DNA from: an uncultured Gammaproteobacteria bacterium
GTDB lineage: Bacteria > Pseudomonadota > Gammaproteobacteria > UBA9214
Direction of reading: 5' to 3'
Length of the DNA stretch: 35,815 nucleotides
NCBI GenBank assembly: GCA_905479705.1
Contig: CAJQNP010000095.1
Coordinates: forward strand, 1-35,815
The notes beneath the pieces were generated by a model that saw only the letters and a list, made by a program, of their open reading frames with translations, did not search any database and was not told where the DNA came from. This document shows positions 20,854 to 23,240 of the stretch, in pieces. Each line of letters opens with the position of its first letter. Within the stretch, counting starts at the first letter, position 1. Both the position numbers and the translations under genes were made by a program.

Positions 20854-21867
20854 ATGCTGAACGAGATCGAATTCCTGCCCGACGGGCTGCTGGGCACGCC
20901 AGCGGAGAAGCTGGAGGCCCTGCTGGGTGGGCCAACGCTGATGCACCTGCCCGGGCGCCGCCCGGAGCCGTTGTTTGTCACGGTGCTGGCGCACGGCAAC
21001 GAGGGGACCGGCTACTGTGCCGTGCAGCAGCTGCTGCAGGCCTACCAGGACCAGGAGCTGCCGCGTGCCTTATCCGTGTTCTTTGCCAATGTCAGCGCTG
21101 CCAGCAAAGGTCTTCGCTTTCTCGACGGCCAGGCGGACTTCAACCGGGTCTGGCCGGGCACCGAGACCCCTGATGTGCCCGAGGCGCAGATGATGCAACG
21201 GGTCGTCGACAGCATGCAGGCGCGCGCAGCGTTTGCCAGTCTCGATGTTCACAACAACACCGGGATCAATCCGCACTACGCGTGCATCAACCGGGTGGAC
21301 AACCAGTTTCTGCACCTCGCCGCGCTGTTCAGTCGCACGGTGGTGTATTTCATTCGTCCGCTGGGTGTGCAGTCCATGGCGATGTCCTACGTGTGCCCGT
21401 CGGTAACGATCGAGTGCGGCAAACCTGACCAGGAATACGGTGTGGCGCATGCGCGCGATTACATCGATGCCTGCATGCATCTGAGCGAGTTGCCCGAGCA
21501 CCCGGTGGCCTCGCATGACGTGGACCTGTTTCACACGGTGGCGACCGTCAAGGTACCTGAAGCGGTCAGTTTCAGTTTTGAGGATGATGCTGTCGACCTG
21601 CGCCTGGTCGGTAACATCGATCACCTCAATTTCCGTGAACTGCCGGCCGGTACCCGGCTGGGTGGCGTGAACCCCGGTGCGTCTGTGTCGCTGGACGTGT
21701 GTGACGAAAACGGCCACCAGGTGAGCCAGCATTATTTCGCGATCGAGGATGATGCACTGCTGACCACGCGCCCACTGATGCCGTCGATGTTTACCCTGGA
21801 TGAGCGCATTATTCGCCAGGACTGTCTCGGTTACCTGATGGAGCGACTGCTGCCGGAGCGTGGCTAG
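20854..21867 (+). CDS. M14-family zinc carboxypeptidase-like deacylase (succinylglutamate desuccinylase/aspartoacylase type)
   Basis: VLAHGNEGTG, DFNRVWPG, DVHNNTG, VTIECGK motifs. Confidence 0.85.
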   Translation: MLNEIEFLPDGLLGTPAEKLEALLGGPTLMHLPGRRPEPLFVTVLAHGNEGTGYCAVQQLLQAYQDQELPRALSVFFANVSAASKGLRFLDGQADFNRVWPGTETPDVPEAQMMQRVVDSMQARAAFASLDVHNNTGINPHYACINRVDNQFLHLAALFSRTVVYFIRPLGVQSMAMSYVCPSVTIECGKPDQEYGVAHARDYIDACMHLSELPEHPVASHDVDLFHTVATVKVPEAVSFSFEDDAVDLRLVGNIDHLNFRELPAGTRLGGVNPGASVSLDVCDENGHQVSQHYFAIEDDALLTTRPLMPSMFTLDERIIRQDCLGYLMERLLPERG

Positions 21868-21898
21868 TACTCCTTCAACATGATATTGCCGGGTTCAG

Positions 21899-21994
21899 TT
21901 GGTCTGTCAGCGTTCAGGACAAGGCGCACCTCGCAGGGAATGGCCATAGTCCTTTCCAAGAGGTGCAACGCAGGCATGGGCGCTGACAGACCAA
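21899..21994. repeat. Hairpin A of the twin-hairpin element
   Basis: 14-bp perfect outer stem TTGGTCTGTCAGCG (21899-21912)/CGCTGACAGACCAA (21981-21994); inner stem GCACCTC/GAGGTGC; apical GGGAA/TTTCC; loop TGGCCATAGTCC. Confidence 0.85.
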
Positions 21995-22005
21995 CCCTTC
22001 GGGCG

Positions 22006-22097
22006 CGCATGTGGCGCCCTGCAGCGGTGTTACCGCGCTTGACAAGGACTAAGGCCATTGCCCGCGCACGGCGCCTTGCTGCAAAACACCACATGCG
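22006..22097. repeat. Hairpin B of the twin-hairpin element (inverted relative to A)
   Basis: Outer stem CGCATGTGG (22006-22014)/CCACATGCG (22089-22097). Read on the minus strand, the inner stem is GCCGTGC/GCGCGGT (with G-T wobbles), the apical stem GGCAA/TTGTC and the loop TGGCCTTAGTCC. Confidence 0.82.
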
Positions 22098-22139
22098 AGC
22101 TGAACCCGGCAATATCATGTTGAAGGAGTACTAGTCATC

Positions 22140-23240
22140 ATGCCGGCCACGGCTGTTGAGCGCCCGCATGTGTTGCTTGCCCTGTCGGCGCATGGCTACG
22201 GTCATCTCGCACAGTGCGCCCCGGTTATCAATGCCCTGTCGGTCGTGGTGCCGGCGCTGCAGCTGAGTGTATGCAGCACCCTGCCGCAGTCTGTTATCGC
22301 TGATCGAATCAGTATTCCTTGCGATGTGCATGCCGTTGAGCTCGATCCCGTGTTGCAAATGCACTCCGCCTGGGAGGTCGATGCGCCGGCGTCACAACAG
22401 GTCTACCGCGCCTTCCATGAGGACTGGGAGGCGGGCCTGCAGCGTGACCGCCAGCTGTTGCGCGAACTCAATCCGGATGTGCTGCTGGCGGATATCCCCT
22501 ACCGTATCCTGCTGGCGGCAGAACAACTCGGTGTGGCGACGATCGGCCTGTGCTCGCTGAACTGGGCTGCGATCTATTCGGCCTACTGTGCAGGCGATGA
22601 CATGGATACCCGCATGCTGGCACAGATGTTATCGGGCTACCGTGCAGCCGATGTGTTTCTGATGCCGCAACCCGCCATGGCCATGCCGGAACTGGACAAT
22701 GCCCGGGTGATTGGCCCGATCGCGCGCAGCGGCGTGCAGCAGCGCTCCGCTCTGCTAACAGGCGGTGGAATCCCTGTCGATGCCAGGGTGATACTGGTCG
22801 CGCTGGGTGGTATCGAGAGCGAAATGCCGCTGGCGAACTGGCCACGGCTTGAAAACACATGCTGGATTTTTGCCGACGCGGTGCATGCCGAACGGGATGA
22901 CATGCTTGATCTGGATGAACTGTCGATGTCCTTTATCGATGTGCTTGCCTCGGTCGATGTCGTGCTCACCAAGCCGGGTTATGGCACCTATGCCGAGGCT
23001 GTCTGTCACGGTGTGGCGCTGCTTGTGCTGGCGCGCCGCGACTGGCCGGAAACCGCGATGCTGAACCGGTGGGCACAGCAACACGGGCACATCGCCACGA
23101 TCACGCGTGAGCAGTTTCACGGCGGTGGGTTTGTATCCGAGATCGAGGCACTGCTTGCATTGCCGCCCGGGGCCGGGCTGGAACCCACGGGTATCGGCGA
23201 TGCCGTCGCGGTGTTGCGCGAGGCGCTGTCTGCTGATTGA
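22140..23240 (+). CDS. GT-B-fold glycosyltransferase-like protein (MurG/arabinokinase N-domain-like)
   Basis: HVLLALSAHGYGHLAQCAPVINAL N-terminal motif; VILVALGGI; VDVVLTKPGYGTYAEAVCHGVALLVLARRDWPET donor-binding-like segment. Confidence 0.75.
   Translation: MPATAVERPHVLLALSAHGYGHLAQCAPVINALSVVVPALQLSVCSTLPQSVIADRISIPCDVHAVELDPVLQMHSAWEVDAPASQQVYRAFHEDWEAGLQRDRQLLRELNPDVLLADIPYRILLAAEQLGVATIGLCSLNWAAIYSAYCAGDDMDTRMLAQMLSGYRAADVFLMPQPAMAMPELDNARVIGPIARSGVQQRSALLTGGGIPVDARVILVALGGIESEMPLANWPRLENTCWIFADAVHAERDDMLDLDELSMSFIDVLASVDVVLTKPGYGTYAEAVCHGVALLVLARRDWPETAMLNRWAQQHGHIATITREQFHGGGFVSEIEALLALPPGAGLEPTGIGDAVAVLREALSAD

Follow-up and report, generated by a model that had tools for sequence, protein, structure and literature searches.

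The window, as we call the whole 35,815-nucleotide stretch of DNA analysed here, contains an AspA/AstE-like ORF and, downstream of it, a glycosyltransferase-like ORF (so named by reading, the Pfam search being without a hit), and the gap between the two is occupied by a 271-bp palindromic element whose features are collected in Table 1. An earlier note on this DNA had described exact 35-bp inverted termini, two inverted and mutually homologous hairpins that make the whole an imperfect palindrome, and no plausible protein, and this description is borne out: the terminal inverted repeats (TIRs) agree at 35 of 35 bp on inverted-repeat comparison, all 271 bp of the element align with its reverse complement (73%, E = 2e-30), and the two 84-aa ORFs found within it are by-products of the palindrome. 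Its fold as single-stranded DNA has an energy of -93.7 kcal/mol, where shuffled sequences average -46.3 (z = -12.5; 0/200 shuffles).

Table 1. Coordinates of the element, its parts and the neighbouring ORFs, as positions of the window
Feature	Positions	Strand	Description and basis
Upstream ORF, AspA/AstE-like	20854-21867		Pfam PF24827
CTAG, probable insertion target	21864-21867		its TAG (21865-21867) serves the upstream ORF as stop codon; junction unoccupied in G004
Family ends proper, AGT...ACT	21866-22132		outer CTAG is the target motif
Left 35-bp TIR	21864-21898	+	CTAG target motif + AGTACTCC...GTTCAG; exact inverted copy of 22100-22134; homologous 32-36 bp TIRs class-wide
Hairpin A	21898-21995	+	variable basal stem (15 bp, perfect, 21898-21912 with 21981-21995) and conserved apical core; inverted repeat, alignment and pair counts
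Hairpin A conserved apical core, model R1	21916-21977	+	cmsearch 72.8 bits, E = 4.9e-18; not an independent score, both window cores being model-building sequences
Central mini-hairpin CCC-TTC-GGG	21995-22003	+	between hairpins A and B; conserved in relatives
Hairpin B	22003-22100	-	homologous to A once reverse-complemented; stem of 23 nt at 78% (22003-22025 with 22078-22100); inverted repeat and element self-match
Hairpin B conserved apical core, model R1	22021-22082	-	cmsearch 69.7 bits, E = 4.1e-17; likewise not independent
Right 35-bp TIR	22100-22134	-	last 4 nt CTAG (22131-22134); exact inverted copy of 21864-21898
AAGGAG within right TIR	22123-22128	+	11 nt before the ATG (22140) of the glycosyltransferase-like ORF; read from sequence
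84-aa ORF	21864-22118	-	by-product of the palindrome
84-aa ORF	21880-22134	+	by-product of the palindrome
Downstream ORF, glycosyltransferase-like	22140-23240		named by reading

In the congener G004 (L063), the same two genes are joined without the element, the unoccupied junction containing ...GGCTAGCC... and the gene-gene junction reading ...AAAGCGGCTAGCCTGTCCGGATATG..., and it is this empty junction that points to CTAG as the probable target of the window insertion. The element would have entered between the two genes, its TIR supplying the upstream ORF with a stop codon and the downstream ORF with a possible ribosome-binding site, in that the AAGGAG of the right TIR may act as a new Shine-Dalgarno sequence. 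The case shows how two genes that meet at an operon junction can both survive an insertion when it falls on a stop codon within CTAG.

A genome search found no further copies in the window's own genome; the element is a single copy there with homologues elsewhere, the nearest full-length ones (90% in one congener, 79% in another family) lying at unrelated loci. The dispersed homologues with intact termini that a mobile-element reading had called for in the earlier note are thus present, and Rfam, searched in gathering and E-value modes, returned nothing above chance and no match at curated score; with homologues at hand and no Rfam match, the outcomes that the earlier note had named as refuting its reading have not come about. 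The conserved core pattern occurs in at least 119 genome stretches, many of the matches lying at contig ends as expected for repeats, and the genera represented include Stutzerimonas, Gilvimarinus, Microbulbifer, Salinisphaera, Halothiobacillus, Thiohalobacter and Thiobacillus. Covariance model R1 recovers the hairpin core from 81 of 274 Gammaproteobacteria genomes, many with at least 19 scored candidates each, and from 64 of the 299 genomes of a phylum sample, including families of other classes; between about a quarter and a third of the sampled Gammaproteobacteria carry the family. The window element had no match in plasmids or phages, nor the core pattern in viral contigs; plasmids carried the Pseudomonas-type member only, on five plasmid records and without annotation.

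The full-length architecture is always the same, running from TIR through hairpin A, CCC-TNC-GGG and the inverted hairpin B to the second TIR, with a median length of 270 bp (256-291 bp, 5th-95th percentile, n = 127), and no cargo ORF was found inside these 127 elements. TIR and stem sequences diverge strongly between subfamilies with pairing retained; the elements of G037, G043 and G014, for instance, have the interior in common and TIRs of equal length but very different sequence. Two short motifs are fixed: the mini-hairpin, which in relatives reads CCC-TNC-GGG or its reverse complement CCC-GNA-GGG, the loop always being TNC/GNA (TTC, TGC, TCC and TAC in 48, 12, 7 and 2 of 69 elements) and the CCC...GGG, both G-C pairs, invariant in 16/16 aligned elements; and CAG (TTCAG), at the inner TIR end and 5' of both hairpins, invariant in the aligned AGT class.

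Several variants accompany these full-length copies. Single-hairpin derivatives occur in the family, and a 61-bp palindrome consisting of two TIRs only (L041:4867-4927, G004:C55) is a deletion derivative. In L036 and L037 (G010:C432, G012:C70), a lone left TIR borders directly on the beginning of a gene for a YhbY-like RNA-binding protein (identified by eye), possibly as a remnant or a recruited 5' sequence. One G499 copy (L361, G499:C1:1408561-1409221) harbours, nested within it, a second kind of palindromic element (CTAGCAGGCCGTTGAAAAAC...GTTTTTCAACGGCCTGCTAG) whose hairpin is related, which may indicate a wider superfamily. A further core match lies on a MAG contig labelled Bifidobacterium breve (L095), probably a mis-binned gammaproteobacterial contig. 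Apparently unpaired cores were considered as a sign of an autonomous long version, and proved to be mostly ordinary elements with a diverged second core, the remainder being truncations.

The retention of pairing through this divergence can be put in figures from 16 aligned elements. Of 91 predicted pairs, 68 carry two-sided compensatory changes, paired cells make up 92.4% against 69.0% in shuffles, cells with two-sided changes number 329 against 98, and the covariation score is 0.602 against 0.183, none of 500 shuffles reaching any of these values; the alignment was made without fitting to structure, but the structure itself came out of this same alignment of related sequences, so that the shuffle figures are inflated and are not probabilities. 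When the partners are slid by one to three columns, pairing falls to about 40%. This covariation supports the maintenance of a folded structure.

The irregularities of the fold bear on the molecule in which it is maintained. On one strand, T.G mismatches abound in hairpin A and C.A mismatches in hairpin B, a strong bias of opposite sense; read in its own orientation, either hairpin shows a T.G wobble at stem positions 14-15 and, above it, the same A.C/AAGG-AAC irregularity (an AAGG/AAC internal loop). With the wobbles on opposite strands, one transcript cannot hold both, whereas two identical sites on opposite DNA strands can. Selection on RNA would also favour G-U over A-C in the TIR, and the mismatches there (GT+TG 63, AC+CA 74, in 69 non-redundant elements) therefore speak against RNA. 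Together these patterns point to a constraint acting on DNA strands rather than on RNA.

Evidence for movement comes from occupied and empty sites. Besides the window locus, borne by its own genome and element-free in G004, four further loci in the genus exist in element-bearing and element-free versions, the flanks joining cleanly in the relatives. The site between glmU and glmS is empty in G012, G001, G011 and G003 (junction, for example, AAAGGAT^AG), and empty sites of the same genus are found at three loci other than these two. The elements of G004 and G010 at the glmU-glmS junction belong to different subfamilies; a single orthologous insertion was dropped as an explanation on that ground, and the site has probably been hit twice. 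The 35 element ends seen in G218, which represent at least 28 sites, combine near-identical subfamily sequences with differing flanks. Given empty sites in congeners and these dispersed, near-identical copies, the element is therefore almost certainly mobile.

Insertions are discrete, mostly intergenic, and fall into CTAG or near variants of it (CTAA/TTAG, GTAG, CAAG). CTA stands directly before 34 of the 35 G218 ends, which corresponds to CTAG targets, and among 49 diverse elements, with ends AGT...ACT between flanks CT/AG and with left and right variants unmatched to each other, the commonest targets are CTAG (21), CTAA/TTAG (9) and GTAG (4). As CTAG is self-complementary, a TA duplication, a CTAG duplication and no duplication yield the same string; the end and flank pattern of the 49 elements fits either no target duplication or a duplication of TA. 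Of ten AGAGCC-type cases in G499, eight have the same three letters on both flanks (TAA/TAA or TTA/TTA), which look like a 3-bp target duplication, and the insertion chemistry may differ between subfamilies. At L124:5800-6337, two different elements stand in tandem with one CTAG in common, so that an element's own end serves as a target.

The mobilising enzyme was sought beside the copies, in autonomous relatives and among known transposases. Neighbour ORF clustering at the fetched loci, the families not being annotated singly, gave no obvious recurrent transposase or other neighbour family. The complete G499 chromosome contains no autonomous element with these ends, its paired TIR motifs all lying within 135-443 bp, and no long TIR pair was found in the two genomes searched, namely complete G499 and the intact contigs of G218. 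Of 17 genomes searched for DDE_Tnp_1 (IS4/IS5 type), all chosen as element-rich save the window's own, seven lack it, the complete G499 and G289 among them, which speaks against an enzyme of this type as the general mobiliser. Y1 transposases are present in 19 of 20 genomes, a sample of element-rich genomes only, and the hairpin core flanks 0 of 30 Y1 transposase loci in such genomes, on which basis a RAYT/Y1 enzyme as partner in cis is rejected for the loci examined. The strongest inverted repeats around these Y1 genes are unrelated to the element, several having a GGGGTC motif. Those Y1 (RAYT-like) genes with inverted repeats of their own (L287, L288, L300-L302, several with GGGGTC) resemble the 'TIRtrons' (PMC3733652).

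We place at about 0.7 the probability that this is a mobile DNA element of some 270 bp, non-autonomous and coding for no protein, from a family that spans the class, the steps of movement proposed here being taken as inferences, and its best reading is that of a MITE- or REPIN-like element whose fold is what is recognised. The folded single strand or a cruciform would be bound by an enzyme acting in trans, hairpins A and B presenting one imperfect hairpin twice, once on each strand, while the TIR stem draws the two ends of the element together; cutting at the CT/AG boundary at both ends would then be followed by insertion at another CTAG, a movement analogous to that proposed for REPINs through TnpA_REP. 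Enzymes of the TnpA_REP kind cleave single-stranded DNA at CT, and in E. coli the REP stem must contain a bulge (PMC8266576); this cut and this need for a bulge resemble the CT/AG boundary and the conserved wobble described above. Recognition of folded single-stranded DNA is tentatively the most likely mode.

The next likeliest mode, possible but doubtful, is that of a classical MITE, in which a DDE transposase, either IS630/Tc1-like at the TA of CTAG or IS5-like at YTAR/TNA, reads the double-stranded TIR and the inner hairpins are passengers. IS630 elements prefer CTAG, and groups of IS5 target YTAR/TNA. Perfect TIRs of 32-36 bp with a CTAG/YTAR target preference suit such an enzyme, as do the apparent TNA direct repeats beside the G499 copies and the existence of single-hairpin and TIR-only derivatives, and for the IS630 family the TA target is in keeping, with the duplication left ambiguous by CTAG. 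Against this stand the seven genomes without DDE_Tnp_1 and a complete G499 without any IS bearing the same TIR; an enzyme that reads the TIR, moreover, leaves unexplained why stems covary and cores are conserved beside TIRs that diverge.

Another account has pairing maintained without selection, by copying from arm to arm, through template switching or gene conversion in the inverted repeat, in an otherwise ordinary, decaying insertion. This we regard as improbable, although it can coexist with the mobile-element explanation. The arms are near-perfect despite sequence drift, and an insert of roughly 22 bp lies in hairpin A of some G218 copies and in hairpin B of others, at the homologous place, which suggests exchange between the inverted hairpins; perfect correction of the arms would, however, erase specific irregularities such as the T.G wobble and the AAGG/AAC loop, and spacing and length are tightly kept. 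The insert, CCAACAGTAGGCGCTTTAGGCGA, is seen in the G218 copies (L228-L257) and in L007, L022, L027, L147 and L171, and G013 has a comparable string that lies outside the element (L381).

A structured RNA, that is, an intergenic transcript kept for mRNA processing, stability or attenuation, is very unlikely: strong covariation and positions just after a stop codon in likely operons (the window, glmU-glmS and a plasmid acyl-CoA dehydrogenase/CaiB junction) would suit it, but the TIR shows no excess of G-U over A-C, the wobbles of A and B could not both form in one transcript, insertions lie at unrelated loci that close relatives have unoccupied, and Rfam has no match. Where the earlier note had left the choice between a non-autonomous mobile element and a structured RNA or single-stranded DNA element, mobility and folding have thus both stood, and the mismatch pattern favours DNA over RNA.

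Beyond the mobile, folded DNA element favoured here lies a bolder and rather doubtful proposal, that the family is a separate and ancient non-autonomous class, spread through Gammaproteobacteria and other classes of the phylum, recognised by folded DNA shape (the TIR stem, two inverted hairpins and the mini-hairpin) and not by sequence, and moved by an enzyme so far unlinked to palindromic repeats. If the favoured reading is right, a repeat carried by some quarter to third of sampled Gammaproteobacteria is without a family name or a mobiliser; its fixed fold, spacing and core offer a sequence-independent signature for annotating intergenic DNA that breaks assemblies; and it allows a direct test of folded single-stranded DNA as a transposition substrate outside REPs, IS200/IS605 and integrons.

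No published description, by concept or by literal TIR strings, was found in the open-access literature (ISfinder was not compared), and several known systems come close to the element. Integron attC sites have a conserved fold and a variable sequence and are recognised as folded single-stranded DNA. The element is like them in conserving its fold while its sequence varies, and differs in forming no tandem array, in its two hairpins and TIR stem, and apparently in lacking a cassette gene and an integrase beside its copies, where neighbour ORF clustering, with proteins not annotated singly, gave no obvious recurrent family. Pseudomonas fluorescens R0/R2 and R26/R200 are likewise gammaproteobacterial intergenic repeats, of which R0/R2 are TIR-bounded, 89-110 bp long and have inverted repeats in common with IS elements, and R26/R200 are longer, these latter being set beside the element by description and not by sequence (PMC2718517).

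REPINs share more of its build: two imperfect inverted hairpins forming a larger one, no gene, many intergenic copies, stem irregularities and CT at the inferred cut sites. They measure about 100 bp, whereas the element has about 270 bp, with a 32-36 bp TIR stem outside the hairpins and a conserved apical core; the GTAG tag at the foot of REPIN/REP palindromes is absent, CAG (TTCAG) standing 5' of both hairpins instead, and the repeat-flanked RAYT gene has no counterpart at the 30 Y1 loci. Bacterial MITEs (Correia/NEMIS, ERIC, RUP, Nezha and others) are, like the element, small, non-coding, TIR-bounded, dispersed and mostly intergenic, and its size and lack of coding (70-400 bp, no coding, for MITEs), its TIRs, its dispersed copies and its presence or absence between relatives all agree with them. 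A parental IS with matching TIRs was not found in G499 or in the intact G218 contigs, though the parent may be lost or distant, and the DDE_Tnp_1 expected of an IS5-family MITE in many-copy genomes is missing from 7 of the 17. The element is thus a MITE by the general definition except for the parental IS, with a REPIN-like architecture that lacks the GTAG tag and the RAYT flank; unlike MITEs, it leaves the letters of TIR and stem free while conserving, class-wide, its fold and its interior core.
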